The notes under the pieces were generated by a model. The model had not been told where the DNA came from. It worked only from the letters and a program-made list of their open reading frames with translations, and ran no database searches. From Glaciozyma antarctica PI12 (lineage: Eukaryota; Basidiomycota; Microbotryomycetes; Kriegeriales; Camptobasidiaceae), in contig KZ627155.1 in assembly GCA_002917775.1 (NCBI GenBank), positions 930,680 to 974,849 on the forward strand: a stretch of 44,170 nt of DNA, in the 5' to 3' direction. Positions 13,467 to 37,509 of this stretch are shown one piece after another. The position numbers and the translations under genes were made by a program. The first letter of the stretch is position 1. Each line of letters opens with the position of its first letter.

Positions 13467-16400
13467 TCATGGTAGTACAAAGGGCGCTGGCGTCGACGGC
13501 GTTGATGCTCGCTGAGCCTGCAACGCCCGCACCTCGGAGCGTTGCCTGTCCGCGAAGCCGAGGAACCGTCGCAAGTCTGCCTCCAGCACCGGTTTCGTGA
13601 GGACGTGCGAGGCTCCACGAGCGCAGTACTCTTCGATGTCGGCCAGTGCAGCGTTGGCGGTGACTCCGACGACGAGCTGAGAGAAACGATGGGTCAGGAC
13701 GAAAGAGGGAAGGTAGCGAGGAGGAGGAACGTACGTCCTCTCGATGCACCGCACGTAATCGCGAGACCATCTGTAGCCCCGAACACACCGGCATCTGTTC
13801 GCGCCAAGCCTGTCAGCAAAATTTCGAGCGAAAACGAAAGAAAAAGAACGCACCTGATTGTCGAGGAACGTCACGTCAAAAGTAAAGACGTCCCTCGCAA
13901 TCGCGCCAGGCCTCGTCGCATCTGAATCCCCCTCGCTCTCCGGTGGTCCGAGGAGGAGGTCGAGCGCGACCTGACCGTTCTCCGCCGTCGTAACCTGGCA
14001 GCCGAGTCGCTCCATCATGCGGCCCATCAACTTGCGCGTGAGCACGTCGTCGTCGACGACGAGGACGCGTAGAGGTCCGTCGGCGAACTCGAGAGGTCGT
14101 GCGGTGGAGGGTCGGGTCGAGGAGGTGGGAGGAGCGGAGGAGGAGGAGAGGTGGGTGACGTTGTCGGGGCGGAGGGAGGGGCCGGAGCCTTGCGAGGTCG
14201 GGAGAGCGGGAGAGGAGAGGGGAGAAGGAAGTAAAGGAAGTTGGCCGTCGCTCGAGAGGACTGGAGTCGGCGCGGGGGAGGCGAAGCGGTAGTTGGTCGG
14301 AACGAGTTCGATCTGCGCCGTCGTCCCGCCTTGCTCGTCGATCTTGCCGAGGGGAGCGTCGCTCGGTCCACGCCCCAAGCTGGGAAGGAAGCGGTACTCG
14401 GACGGCTCCCCGCTCGACGACGGCGTCGACATCTCGGTCACCATCGAGTTTACGCGACGATGAGGTTCGAAGGTGTCCGTCTTGCGTGTTTGAGGACCGA
14501 TACCGAAAGGCATCTCGACCCAGAACGTCGACCCTTCTCCGACGTGACTCTTGACTCCTAGACGACCGCCCGAGAGCTTGACGATCTGCCGGACGAGGGA
14601 GAGTCCGAGCCCGGTACCCTTGCCGCCTTGGTGTCGTCCAATCTCCGTCTGGACGTACGCAGAGAAGAGGCGGTTGTCGGCCCTGGAATCAAGGTCAGCG
14701 AAGGAGAGAAGCAGCGGAAGAAGCGAACGCACATGTCCGACTTCCTGATCCCCACGCCAGTGTCGCGGATTTCGATCCGAACTACGAGAAGCTTGTTGCT
14801 GCTCTGGTCCACGCACGTCTTGGCTTCGTGCTGTTGAAGTCGGTTCGCTGAGAGGTGAGGCGCAGAGTAGCTCGTCGACGCTACCGAGGCTCCATCTGAG
14901 CCGACCTTGCGGATCTCGGGAGTGGGGAGCTGATGGGTTGCAGATGCCTCGCCGTCGTTGGACAAGCAGCAATCGAAAGGCTCCGAGGGGTAGACGAGCG
15001 AGGTGTGGATGCCGACAGAGCCGTTGCTCGTAAACTTGCAGGCGTTGGACGCGAGGTTGTTGATGACTGCAAAGGCGCGAGGTCAGCAGCAGTACGAACG
15101 CGAACAAACGCCTCATCTCACCTTGGCGCAGTCGCATCTCGTCGCCCATCACCATCCCTTCCCCCTCTTCGATGATTCCCTCGCACTCCCTCGCGCAGGA
15201 TACGCTGCCTTCTTCGCCACCTCGTCGACCCGAGGATCGAGATACGTCTCGAGTGCGAGTCCTCGTGCCGTCGCGTCGAGCTTGAGCGGTCCAAAGATCG
15301 ATCGCATGACGTTGTGGAAGGAGAACGGACGAGAGACCGACGAGAAGCCGCCTCGTTCCATTCGAGAGAAGTCGAGGACGTCCTGGAAGCCGCCACCGCG
15401 TCAGCAAAGCTCCAAATCGCGCGTCCGTTGACGGCAGCACTCACATTCAACACTTGCGACATCATCTGCAGCGAGCCTTCGAGAGCAGCGTACTCGAGAG
15501 CTTGCTCACTCGCCTTGTCGAAAACGTTCGCCCATTCGAGGTTTTGAACGGCCAGTACTGCGTCAACAGGTAAGCATTCGGCGAGCTGAAAGAACGTAGC
15601 GAGGACGACGCACAGGCAGTGTTGAGAGGAACTCGAACTTCGTGGAAGATGTAGCTCGAGAATCGACGTTTCGAATCCATCGTCTTGCGCTCGTTGATCT
15701 GCGCCTTCTGCTTCGCGCGGAATTGAACTGAGGAGAAGGACGCGTCAGTCGCTTGTGGAGAAAGGAGTGCGATCGTGCTCACCCTTGAGTTCGGCACGCA
15801 TCAGGTACATTCGCCGATCTGCGACCTCCCGACGATAATGCGTGTACAGCACGAATCCCTGGAAGAGGAAAACGTTGACGACTGCGAAGACGAAGCGATC
15901 AGTGGCCGCGCGACATCTCGGCGAAAAGTCTGAACGAACCGTTGCGAACGTAGGGCGTTCGTACTGGCAGAATAGTCGCAAAGACGACGACGAGCCAGAC
16001 GAGCGACGACATCGTCGAAAATAGGCGCGATTGAGATAGAGCGAAGAGAGCCATGACCTGCCAGGCTGAGGTTAGCCAAAAAGAGCTGCGAGGTTGGGAA
16101 AGGACGAACGGGCAGGGCCGTGGCGAAGTACAGCGTTCCCTGTGAGAGATGGGTTAGTCGGGTGCAATGAGATACGGAGAAGTGGAACTCGCCATGAAGT
16201 CGCGGTTGCCGCAATTTTGAAGCACAGGGTCATAGAAATTGCACAAGTGCATGTCGATAACGTTCGAGGTGGCTGCCGAAAAAGACGTTAGTGACGGTGC
16301 GCAGAGCTGAAAGGGAGAACGCACAACTGATGCAGACCGAGATGAGGAGCAGAGTTTGCCAGATGTACCAGTGCTTCCTAGGAAAGTCGAGGCAGGCCAT

Positions 16401-18922: not shown

Positions 18923-19512
18923 AGTTGTTCGTTGAGTGATTTGGTCGTGTCGAATAGAGGCGCATCCAGTTGACGAACGGCAGAGAGAACCAGGCGAGCT
19001 TCGTTGGCAGCGAGCGAGCGAAGGAAGATCCGGTTCCGAGACCGCAAAGTTTGCAGCTTTGCTCTTACAATCTCTCCATCCGACGCTGTTGGCTTGAAGC
19101 TCGAAGCCTGCGTGCTTTGGGACAGAGGAGCGAGGGCGGAGAGGTGCCCGAGGTGCGAAGGCGTAGGGCGTTCCCCTCGTTGGCTGAGTCGTCGAATCAC
19201 CCTGAGACGAGCTGGTCATAGACCGGAGCAGCTCTAGCTTGAAGAACGTCCATATAGGCGAGAAAGAAGTGACTCCCTTCCAGAGCGAAAGTCGTCCACC
19301 AGGACCGAAGTCGAGCAAGACTCCTCTCCGTCCGCCCAAACACCACACCTCAACACCCGCGACTTCCCCTCTCAACAGCCTCAGGCGATCGCCACCAGCA
19401 AGCACCAGCCACAGCAGCTCAGCGCCTCCCACCCCAGTCGCCTTCTCTCGCCAAATCGCGTCCTCACAACTCGCCCATCTTCCCCCCCCCCCCCTCGACC
19501 CCTCACCGACTC
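18923..19512. other. Intergenic before the RBR ligase gene
   Basis: 590 bases without a supported gene. The right part is the leader/promoter of the RBR ligase gene and includes a run of 13 C (19482-19494) ending 18 bases before its ATG. Confidence 0.4.
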
Positions 19513-21769
19513 ATGTCCGACTCTGACAGCATCCTCTCCGATATCGGGTCCGACCTAGGCTTCGATGACGCTGACGAGTCGATGGACGAAGCAGGTTCGT
19601 CGCCCTTCCCCCTCCCCCAGCTCGGCCACTGCTGACTCGCCACCGCCTTCCCTTCTCCTCTCACAGACCTCGACGACAAGTCGGCTTCGGACGCAGGCTC
19701 TATCTCCGATTCTGGGTTCAGTCCCATCAGCTCGGCGGCGAAGGGCAAGGGGAAGAGCACCGAGGTCGGGGGCGTCGATTACAAGGTCTTCAGCATCACC
19801 AAGCTCATGGAGGAGCAACAAAACGCTATCGACTACGTCAAAGATATGCTCGGGCTCAAGGTGGGTCCCTCCTTTCTTTGCTCGGACGAGGGGACGGCCG
19901 TTGGGGGAGGGCGAGCATACCGGAAGGTCCGCGCGGGTGATCAGAGCGGAAGCTGACGCGACTCGGAGTGTGCAGGCGTCTGATGCTGCAGTACTGCTTC
20001 GATACTTTGCCTGGAAGAAGGAGAAGCTCATCGAGGTGCGCCGTTCTCCCGCTGGTTCGGAACGCCCCAGCTGATGCCCCCCCCCCCCCACAGAACTACA
20101 TGGAGACCCCCGAGAAGACGCTGGCCGCTGCTGGGATCCACGAGGGAGGCGCTCAACCTCGGCTGAAGCGAGTGCGAGGATTCATCTGCGAGATCTGCTA
20201 CGAGGAGGACGGCGCGAAGGAGACGCTCGCTCTGAGCTGCGACCACCGCTGTGAGTTCTGGTCGCGCGCGTCATGAGGGGGCGGAGGAGAGCTAATGCGT
20301 TCGTTCTCCCAGTCTGCAAGGAGTGCTACTCGCACTACGTTACGTCCAAGATCATGGACGAGAGCGAAAGCCGAAGGATTCAGTGCATGGGCTCCGACTG
20401 CAACACCATCGTCGACGAGAAGACGATCGAACTCCTCGTTAGCAAGGAGACTCTCATTCGGTGCGTCCCTCTCTCCCTCCACATTACCAGCTTACTGACC
20501 CGACCCCATTACAACTACAGCTCCCTCCTCAACCGCACCTACGTCGACGACGACTCTCACCTCCGCTGGTGCCCCGCCCCCAACTGCGAGTACGCGATCG
20601 AATGCTCAGTCCCCGCCCGCTCGCTCGACGTCGTCATCCCCATCGTCGAATGCGCGTGCCACAACACGTTCTGCTTCGGCTGCGGCGAGCCCGACCACCG
20701 CCCGTGCTGCTGCCCTATCGTCAAGAGGTGGATGAAGAAGTGCGCCGACGACAGCGAGACGTCCAACTGGATTGCCGCCAACACCAAGGAGTGCCCCAAG
20801 TGCCATTCGACGATCGAGAAGAACGGAGGATGCAACGTGAGTGGGGATTTCGCGCGTGAGCGAGGCTGGCGTCGATGCGGGAGCTGACGTTCTTCTTTCC
20901 TCCCTCGCGCTTTCTACTCCTCAGCACATGGTACGTTTCAGCTTCGCTGGCAGCGTTTGCGAAAGGACCAAGCTAACGCCTCTCTTTTAGACCTGCAAGA
21001 AGTGCACTTGGGAGTGGTGCTGGGTCTGCGAAGGAACTTGGAGCGACCACGGCACGTCTTGGTACAACTGCGCCCGGTTCGAGGAGAAGGGCGACAAGAA
21101 CCAGGACGCGCAGAGCAAGTCTCGCGCCAGCCTCGAGCGATACCTCCACGTAAGCTGTCCCTTCGCTCTCGTTCCCCAAGATTGAGTTCGCTGACTCGTC
21201 GTTCCACAGTACTACAACCGCTTCGCAAACCACGAACAGTCGATTAGGCTCGAGCAGGAGCTCTACAAGGCGGCCGAAGCGAAGATGGAGGACGTCCAGC
21301 GCGCGAGCGCCCTCTCGTGGATCGAAGTTCAGTTCCTCGCCAAGGCGGTCGAGACGCTCGGCAAGTGCCGCACGGTGCTCAAGTGGACGTACGCGATGGC
21401 GTTCTACCTCGCCAAGAACAACCAGACGCAGATGTTCGAGGACAACCAGAAGTGCGTCGTCTTTTCGTCGACGTTTTCTGGAGCGGGCTGCTGATGCTGC
21501 CGACTCCTTTCGCAGTGATTTGGAGCAGGCTGTCGAGTCGCTCGCTGAGCTGATGGAGAAGCCCATTGAGGAGGAGAAGATCGCCGAGCTTCGACAGCAA
21601 GTGACCGACAAGACCGTCTACGTCGCGCGACGATGCCAAGTTCTGCTCGAGGACACGCTCAAGGGCTACGACGAGGTGCGTACCTCTCCTCTCTCCCTTC
21701 TCTGCCGCTTCTGACGCGCTTTCGCGTTCGCAGGAGCGATGGGTGTGGGCCGACCCAATGAAGCTTTGA
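19513..21769 (+). CDS. Ariadne-type RBR E3 ubiquitin ligase
   Basis: About ten exons give roughly 520 residues. The acidic N-terminus (SDSDSILSDIGSDLGFDDAD) and a UBA-like region precede RING1 (CEICYEEDGAKETLALSCDH, RFCKECY), the IBR (CPAPNCEYAIEC, CACHNTFCFGCGEPDH) and RING2 (ECPKCHSTIEKNGGCNHM, TCKKCTWEWCWVCEG). The Cys of GGCNHM corresponds to the thioester-forming catalytic Cys of HHARI-type ligases. A C-terminal Ariadne helical domain follows (RYLHYYNRFANHEQSIRLEQ, VETLGKCRTVLKWTYAMAFY). The protein ends ERWVWADPMKL. Order and length fit the Ariadne subfamily, which takes ubiquitin from an E2 onto Cys and often works with neddylated cullins. The residues HM of RING2 come from a separate 6-nt exon (20925-20930). 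A 13-C run forms the pyrimidine tract of the intron ending at 20093. Confidence 0.93.
20925..20930 (+). other. 6-nt micro-exon of the RBR ligase (codes His-Met)
   Basis: CACATG is flanked by acceptor CTCAG (to 20924) and donor GTACGT (from 20931). The introns are 88 nt (20837-20924) and 60 nt (20931-20990). Inclusion restores the invariant GGCNHMTCKKC of RING2. Confidence 0.85.
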
Positions 21770-22024
21770 TTCCGCCGGCCGGTCACTGCTGTCCCCTTTC
21801 GTCGTTCTCGCATCCCTCTCCCGCATTTGTTCTACGCCCCCTCCCGTCTCCCGACCTTGCTACCCGCTTCCACCACCTTACCCTTGCTATTCCTCTGCAC
21901 AGAGAATGATCTCTCATACCAATGAACAGCATTCGATTTGCACGCTACGAGTGTGGAGAGCGAGAGAAGGCTGTTGAAGGGTGCGGTGTTGCATTAGGTC
22001 TACAAAGCGAGCGATTGAATCCCT

Positions 22025-36442: not shown

Positions 36443-37509
36443 CTAGTGCGCAAACATGCGGAGGTAGGCGAGCAGCAGCGCTCCCGTTCCTGCGACGCGT
36501 TGAGCTTGAGCTTCCAAGCACACAACGAGGGAGAGGATAGGAACGTACCCGACATGACGGCAAAAGCGTATTGAAGAATGCTGCAGAGGGATTGGGTGAG
36601 CCACGAGATCTCGAGGAGTTAGCTCGCTGAAACTGACTTGAACTTGACGGCCTCCATCCTGTCGACAAAGTGGGGTCAGTACGAGCTTATAGAAGGCGCA
36701 TCAGGAACGACTGACGAAGTACGAAGCAGTCCAATCTCGTTCTCTATCCGCGTATCGACCTCGGTGAGCTTGACCTCGCGCACGCTCATCTCGTCCCGAA
36801 TCCGACCCTGTCCCGCGCACGACGCGCATCAGCTCTGCCCCTCTCGAACACACCTCTAAAAGCACCTTCTCGAGGTTGAGATCCAGTCGTACACCGGCCT
36901 GAGTCCTCGTAACCTCGTAATGCGGAGCTTCTGCTTGAGCCGCTCAATATCGCCCAGCAGTCGCTCGTTCTCCGCCTTGAGATTCACAAAGTCCGTCTTC
37001 TCGGAGAGCTCGAGGTTCTGTTTCAGTGAGGCAAAGTCGACCTGAGGGATCTGCAGTCAGCGGGCGCGAACGACAGAGGTACCCGGAGTAGGGCGCACCT
37101 TCTGGGTGTAGTGGTGCTGCGAAGAGGCACAGGTCAGCTCCCAGTCCTCCCGTATCTAGCTTCACTCCTAACGCACCTTGTCCTGCTCTGCCCTCGTCAC
37201 GAGGTTCCCCTGCATGTTCCTGATGCTGATAATCGATAACCTCCTCCAGCGTATCGATGACACCCTCCGCCTGCCTCCTAGACAACCCCTCCCTCTCCAG
37301 CCGCTGCACGTACTCTGCCGTATCAAAGTGGTCTGTTGGGAGCAAAGAGACCCGTGAGTGTGGTTCGGAAGCGCGAGGGAGCCACGAGACGCACAGTGCG
37401 CGGGGAGGGTTGGCGTGTAGTGCAGCAGGCGGTGGCGGAGCGGTGGAGGAGGATGAAGGGGTCTATGGACTCTTGCTATTCGCTGGAATGCTTTAGTCGG
37501 AGAGTTCAT
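36443..37509 (-). CDS. DUF1640 mitochondrial coiled-coil protein (Fmp32/MCUR1/CCDC90 family)
   Basis: ATG at 37509; several short exons; stop ends at 36443. The basic N-terminus (MNSPTKAFQRIA, then RVHRPLHPPPPLRHRLLHYT) looks like a mitochondrial presequence. The family core follows: HFDTAEYVQRLEREGLSRRQ, AEGVIDTLEEVI, NMQGNLVTRAEQDK, VDFASLKQNLELSEKTDF, VNLKAENERLLGDIERLKQK and LREVKLTEVDTRIETEI-like sequence. One C-terminal membrane anchor ends the protein (SILQYAFAVMSGTGALLLAY, LRMFAH). DUF1640 proteins are inner-membrane proteins linked to respiratory-chain assembly in yeast (Fmp32) and to the calcium uniporter in animals (MCUR1). Length about 220 residues is normal. It is divergent from RAD9, with 73 bases between start codons. 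Confidence 0.88.

Follow-up and report, generated by a model that had tools for sequence, protein, structure and literature searches.

A probable six-nucleotide exon encoding the catalytic histidine of an ARIH1-type ubiquitin ligase in Glaciozyma antarctica

Exons of a few nucleotides are known from both fungi and mammals, and we compare the present locus with those that resemble it most (papers are cited by PMC number, from extracts of their text). In Trichoderma virens, a tiny exon of Xlr2 (PMC11121469) encodes metal-site residues of a conserved domain; it is 20 nt long, which is not a multiple of three, and its inclusion depends on glucose according to the RNA evidence in the extract. Exon II of rtnA in Aspergillus niger (15 nt, PMC6616335) is frame-neutral and is skipped, and the skipping is tied there to a twin intron (stwintron). 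The 4-bp exon of human MPC1 (PMC9929638) is described as constitutive and reliant on nearby intron sequence, in a mammalian setting of long introns and exon definition. On the protein side, the closest system is the RBR ubiquitin ligase ARIH1 (HHARI), with a UBA-like domain, RING1, IBR, a RING2 that carries C-x-H and Glu, and an Ariadne domain. In vitro, the ligase loses its activity when any one residue of the Cys-His-Glu triad is substituted, while the Glu of parkin is seemingly less important in cells (PMC3940038, in whose extract the HHARI residue numbering is inconsistent by two between sentences).

The locus lies in a stretch of 44,170 nt of Glaciozyma antarctica PI12 (the window), to which all positions refer unless another stretch is named. 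Like the Xlr2 exon, its micro-exon encodes metal-site residues of a conserved domain in a fungus, but it has 6 nt, is frame-neutral and is known from sequence. It shares frame neutrality with rtnA exon II, whereas its two flanking introns read as ordinary and separate; it shares extreme shortness with the MPC1 exon, but its introns are short. The predicted protein has the same domains as ARIH1 and differs from it in spacing two RING2 cysteines more closely, by two residues (TCKKC versus VCRNQNC in ARIH1) and, in a comparison made at the protein level, in drawing its His-Met pair from a 6-nt exon of its own. Among the open-licence papers that our literature searches listed, none concerns this micro-exon, or any micro-exon in an RBR ligase or in a red yeast.

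The gene, its predicted protein and the micro-exon

The gene occupies 19513-21769 with eleven exons and ten introns, all of them GT-AG, and its spliced frame is open over 519 codons (Table 1). In a search of PDB-chain sequences, ARIH1 is the top match of the predicted protein (residues 63-514 aligned, E 5.5e-121), followed by ARIH2 (1.2e-77), Cullin-9 (2.5e-29) and the best parkin chain (4.9e-10), so that by E-values among PDB chains it is nearer to ARIH1 than to the other three. The Pfam domains over cut-off are UBA_ARI1, zf-C3HC4, IBR, IBR_1, IBR_2 and Ariadne. The RING1-IBR-RING2 order is present (zf-C3HC4 at residues 144-184 with 23.2 bits against a cut-off of 21, IBR at 215-278, IBR_1 at 300-339), as are the N-terminal UBA-like domain (UBA_ARI1, 1.4e-15) and the C-terminal Ariadne domain (7.5e-15). 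Exons 8 to 11 encode the remainder of RING2, including Glu329, and then the Ariadne domain. The predicted 519-aa product is a full-length RBR ubiquitin ligase of the ARIH1/HHARI type.

Table 1. Positions of the gene's exons, of the two introns flanking exon 7 and of the stop codon
Feature	Positions in window	Strand	Basis or score
Exon 1	19513-19594	+	spliced translation, ARIH1 alignment
Exon 2	19667-19860	+	spliced translation, ARIH1 alignment
Exon 3	19976-20035	+	spliced translation, ARIH1 alignment
Exon 4	20094-20250	+	spliced translation, ARIH1 alignment
Exon 5	20313-20460	+	spliced translation, ARIH1 alignment
Exon 6 (last codons: catalytic Cys318 and Asn319)	20521-20836	+	spliced translation, ARIH1 alignment
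Intron 6 (88 nt, phase 0; gtgagt...agctgacg...cctcag)	20837-20924	+	score 25.6, 30th percentile of 358 introns
Exon 7 (6-nt micro-exon CACATG, His320-Met321)	20925-20930	+	spliced frame, ARIH1 alignment, shuffles
Intron 7 (60 nt, phase 0; gtacgt...agctaacg...ttttag)	20931-20990	+	score 28.5, 63rd percentile of 358 introns
Exon 8	20991-21149	+	spliced translation, alignment, Pfam
Exon 9	21210-21451	+	spliced translation, alignment, Pfam
Exon 10	21516-21675	+	spliced translation, alignment, Pfam
Exon 11	21734-21769	+	spliced translation, alignment, Pfam
Stop codon	21767-21769	+	spliced translation

Exon 6 ends in GGA-GGA-TGC-AAC and exon 8 starts with ACC-TGC. With exon 7 between them the spliced frame reads TIEKNGGCNHMTCKKC and gives the RING2 motif GGCNHMTC, which aligns without a gap over GGCNHM to GGCNHMVC of ARIH1; the spliced frame and this alignment bear out the proposal of the initial annotation that CACATG is a 6-nt exon restoring the motif. 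It had also held that skipping would leave an otherwise complete ligase in frame, and translation agrees: joining exon 6 straight to exon 8 yields a protein of 517 aa with the motif GGCNTC, the frame kept and the remainder unchanged. If intron 6 or intron 7 is retained, translation ends early, after residue 335 or 340, respectively. By alignment, the Cys-His-Glu of RING2 corresponds to Cys318, His320 and Glu329, and His320 is present only when exon 7 is included. The His is not beside the catalytic Cys, as first described, but at position +2 (C-N-H), while the role ascribed to it in HHARI-type catalysis agrees with the in vitro substitutions (extract of PMC3940038). The alignment implies a catalytic triad split over three exons, with Cys318 in exon 6, His320 in exon 7 and Glu329 in exon 8. 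CACATG is called an exon because of its sequence and of the homology, and very probably it encodes two active-site residues, the catalytic His included, in six bases. A ligase made without it is predicted to be inactive.

A 6-nt exon with the catalytic His is easily overlooked by gene finders, so that database entries for its protein could be missing His-Met and appear catalytically dead. The gene also offers a natural test of how a short-intron genome splices an exon far below the size of the splice complex, and a clean one, because enzyme activity should need correct splicing.

Splice signals of the flanking introns

To judge the introns on both sides of exon 7 we use a splice model built on 241,470 bases of this genome, comprising twenty 10-kb stretches and the window minus 19301-22000. 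Simple rules give 377 seed introns, with the branch point 12-22 nt from the acceptor end in 338 of them and with GTGCGT (97), GTGAGT (79) and GTACGT (42) as the commonest donors. The model is trained on the 358 seed introns whose branch distance is 10-24 nt, all of them predicted and not proven by RNA, and because of this limit its percentiles for distant branch points are biased low. With introns of up to 130 nt, overlapping ones counted and one shuffled copy per score, it counts 602 introns for the real sequence versus 47 for the shuffled at score 21, and 384 versus 10 at score 25. A further run allows introns of up to 400 nt and prefers those of 130 nt or less; it returns 403 introns, versus 35 in a shuffled copy, 18 of these 35 being at least 140 nt long.

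Intron 6 has the donor GTGAGT, the branch point AGCTGACG, whose A lies 38 nt from the intron end, a very long pyrimidine tract and CAG. Intron 7 has the donor GTACGT, the branch point AGCTAACG, whose A lies 15 nt from the intron end, and TAG. By the model, the donor of intron 6 is the stronger, and intron 7 is the shorter with the closer branch point. The splice sites around CACATG had been called good. That holds for both introns as wholes, which score in the normal range of the genome; the acceptor of exon 7, however, has a middling score and an odd build. The branch point at 38 nt is the single good one in intron 6, and a distance of 38 nt or more occurs in 3 of the 403 modelled introns when distance is scored, compared with 20 of 233 when it is left unscored, in a run that picks up stray motifs. 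Because of the latter count, the oddness of this acceptor appears less firm than 3/403 implies. From branch point to AG, 30 of 34 bases are pyrimidines, as many as in just one of the 403 modelled introns; likewise, the 35 bases preceding the final CAG hold 30 pyrimidines, a number reached by 1 of 233 other introns. In human micro-exons, according to the extract of PMC4317164, T content is raised more than 20 nt upstream if the exon is alternative and 5-20 nt upstream if it is constitutive; the tract of intron 6 spans both zones. The odd acceptor fits constitutive inclusion and a switch alike, and it could mean inefficient inclusion of exon 7.

We also considered whether short exons of this genome generally come with distant branch points or long tracts, and two Spearman tests over 233 exons do not support this: shorter exons do not have more distant branch points (-0.07, p 0.29), and they have slightly fewer upstream pyrimidines (+0.20, p 0.002). 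Without a distance term, and thus with noisy picks, branch distances of at least 30 nt are found for 6 of 18 exons below 40 nt, 14 of 160 exons of 40-299 nt and 13 of 55 exons of 300-599 nt.

How often would such an arrangement arise by chance? On both strands of the 241,470 other bases there is no second 6-nt gap between two introns that both score at least 25, and at this score no inter-intron gap below 13 nt occurs across the sample. At score 21 the model offers candidate gaps of 1, 3, 5, 6 and 11 nt, one of each; in the shuffled copies, neither score gives any gap of 1-60 nt. The window contains YAGCAYATGGTRNGT a single time, and none of 100 shuffles has it. The 6-nt gap at score 21 (ATGCCG, 13789-13794, minus strand) proved to be a decoy, namely the start of a longer exon that encodes a receiver domain (Response_reg, 4.4e-19, joined reading); at score 21 the splice score alone yields false micro-exons. 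The gene that contains the decoy (13480-15400, minus strand) has histidine-kinase-like ATPase motifs, as read by eye, and its receiver domain, recognised in the joined piece, is split by an intron just upstream of the conserved Met-Pro. The splice model also places candidate exons of 13-30 nt in the sample, and small exons are probably not foreign to this genome. Strong scores are given to candidates of 15 nt (L032:5897-5911, minus strand) and 18 nt (window 37099-37116, minus strand).

Inclusion, skipping and a possible switch

We think it likely that CACATG is a real exon which is normally always included, and that the gene encodes an active ligase of the ARIH1/HHARI type. Each short intron would be recognised on its own, by intron definition, a mode reported for ascomycetes (extract of PMC6616335), and with two separately recognised introns the His-Met pair would be included whichever of them is removed first. 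As for the order of removal, our guess is that the first to go is intron 7 (60 nt, branch point at 15 nt), which would fuse CACATG to exon 8; with intron 7 gone, intron 6 would be left with one good acceptor and His-Met would be locked in. The signs are mixed: of the two, intron 6 has the better donor and a long tract, and intron 7 the shorter length and closer branch point. In animals and plants, the upstream intron tends to be removed first where the upstream sites are strong, the pyrimidine tract is long and the branch point lies close; for most SRRM4-dependent micro-exons it is the downstream intron that is removed first (both from the extract of PMC10250204). The distant branch point and the very long tract of intron 6 may, in addition, leave room for two splice complexes around the 6-nt exon.

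Several observations support constant inclusion: the full-length protein is gapless at the motif, both introns are in the range of the model, and the 6-nt gap is otherwise absent. The presence of C-x-H in six of seven RBR genes and the truncation on intron retention are counted toward it as well, as are the reports of rare exon skipping among fungi (extracts of PMC5006051 and PMC6142364), of intron definition in ascomycetes and of the constitutive 4-bp exon of MPC1. Against it stand the odd acceptor, the signals of the skip junction (20836-20991, 154 nt), which at 29.5 exceed the 25.6 of intron 6 when the length term is omitted, and the 50 of 403 modelled introns of at least 150 nt, many of them perhaps false (18 of the 35 introns in the shuffled copy are at least 140 nt). 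The counts of 50/403 and 20/233 make constant inclusion less firm, and make it likelier that some skipping leaks through unregulated. Such a leak, in which a small and steady share of transcripts would lack exon 7 as splicing noise with no role, is the alternative that fares best, with a strong competing acceptor 66 nt downstream of a middling one at the micro-exon; even so, we regard it as unlikely.

Next comes a regulated switch, which we rate as improbable. Under some conditions the donor of intron 6 would pair with the acceptor of intron 7 to give a 517-aa ligase without His-Met; this product, unaltered elsewhere, might still bind both E2~Ub and neddylated cullin but could not transfer ubiquitin, and so would inhibit the active form. 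The kept frame with the remaining protein unchanged, the strong skip-junction signals (29.5) and the odd branch point and tract at the micro-exon acceptor all speak for it, as do the fungal precedents of Xlr2 (20-nt exon, PMC11121469) and rtnA (15-nt exon II, PMC6616335) in their extracts. However, modelled introns near 154 nt are scarce (4 of 403 at 140-170 nt, with up to 400 nt allowed), and exon skipping is reported to be low: its events are few in Cryptococcus neoformans (extract of PMC5006051), and fungi as a group have comparatively low levels (extract of PMC6142364). The fuller version, in which intron 6, through its odd, distant branch point and its tract, sets a condition-dependent skipping that yields a dominant-negative ARIH1 occupying neddylated cullin-RING ligases, we place lower again, as quite improbable. 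Because short exons as a group lack the features of intron 6, neither this idea of adjustable inclusion nor that of room for two splice complexes gains general support. Regulated skipping, if it occurs, would be an unusually economical off-switch for a ubiquitin ligase.

Very improbable, finally, is that CACATG is unused and the 154 nt form one intron of a catalytically dead RBR protein: the well-scoring skip junction and the open frame speak for it, but chance would then have had to place precisely the two conserved codons that are missing between an acceptor and a donor that are both good; a 6-nt gap at score 25 is absent in 241 kb, and the short motif occurs in 0 of 100 shuffles. We are left with a real-looking 6-nt exon that is probably always used, in an otherwise ordinary ARIH1-type gene; a switch on top of this is speculative.

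The catalytic Cys region in other RBR genes

Searching the genome with the protein recovers this gene exon by exon, together with two further places (E 5.4e-4 and 0.0025). A scan for relatives with the protein gave 5 pattern matches on viral contigs and 22 on genome contigs, with none confirmed. By eye, we read six further RBR-like genes in the genome, a lower bound on their number: C11 (L010), C5 (L011), C8 (L013), C12 (L020), C15 (L021) and C14 (L022), the last with an RBR match (E 0.02) under the family cut-off. Five of the six carry C-x-H (CNHITC in C11 and C8, CNHMQC in C5, CPH in C12, CDH in C15), and C14 has CNK in its place; with the present gene included, C-x-H is found in six of the seven RBR genes read and C-N-K in the seventh. 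None of the six further genes, read by eye, has a 6-nt exon at the catalytic Cys region. An intron does fall in the stretch bounded by the codon preceding the catalytic Cys and the end of the fifth codon that follows it in six of the seven, at differing places, with C11 having none; this span was chosen post hoc, and the intron positions come from consensus and frame.

Two of these genes have further peculiarities near the catalytic Cys. In C12 (L020:1759-1880), the RING2 that follows an intron within CPHM seems by eye to be HILFRCQQQF and to lack its usual second Cys; the RING2 may be divergent, or the intron boundary may be wrong. At the catalytic Cys region of C15 we see, by eye, two exons of about 28 nt. 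Near L021:2045-2092 of this gene we see no frame-keeping GT donor, and reading GCDH|MTC there requires the removal of a 48-nt AT-AG intron (ATATGC...GCTAAC...CACAG), which may reflect an intron of the rare AT-AG type, an altered donor or a mistake in the assembly.
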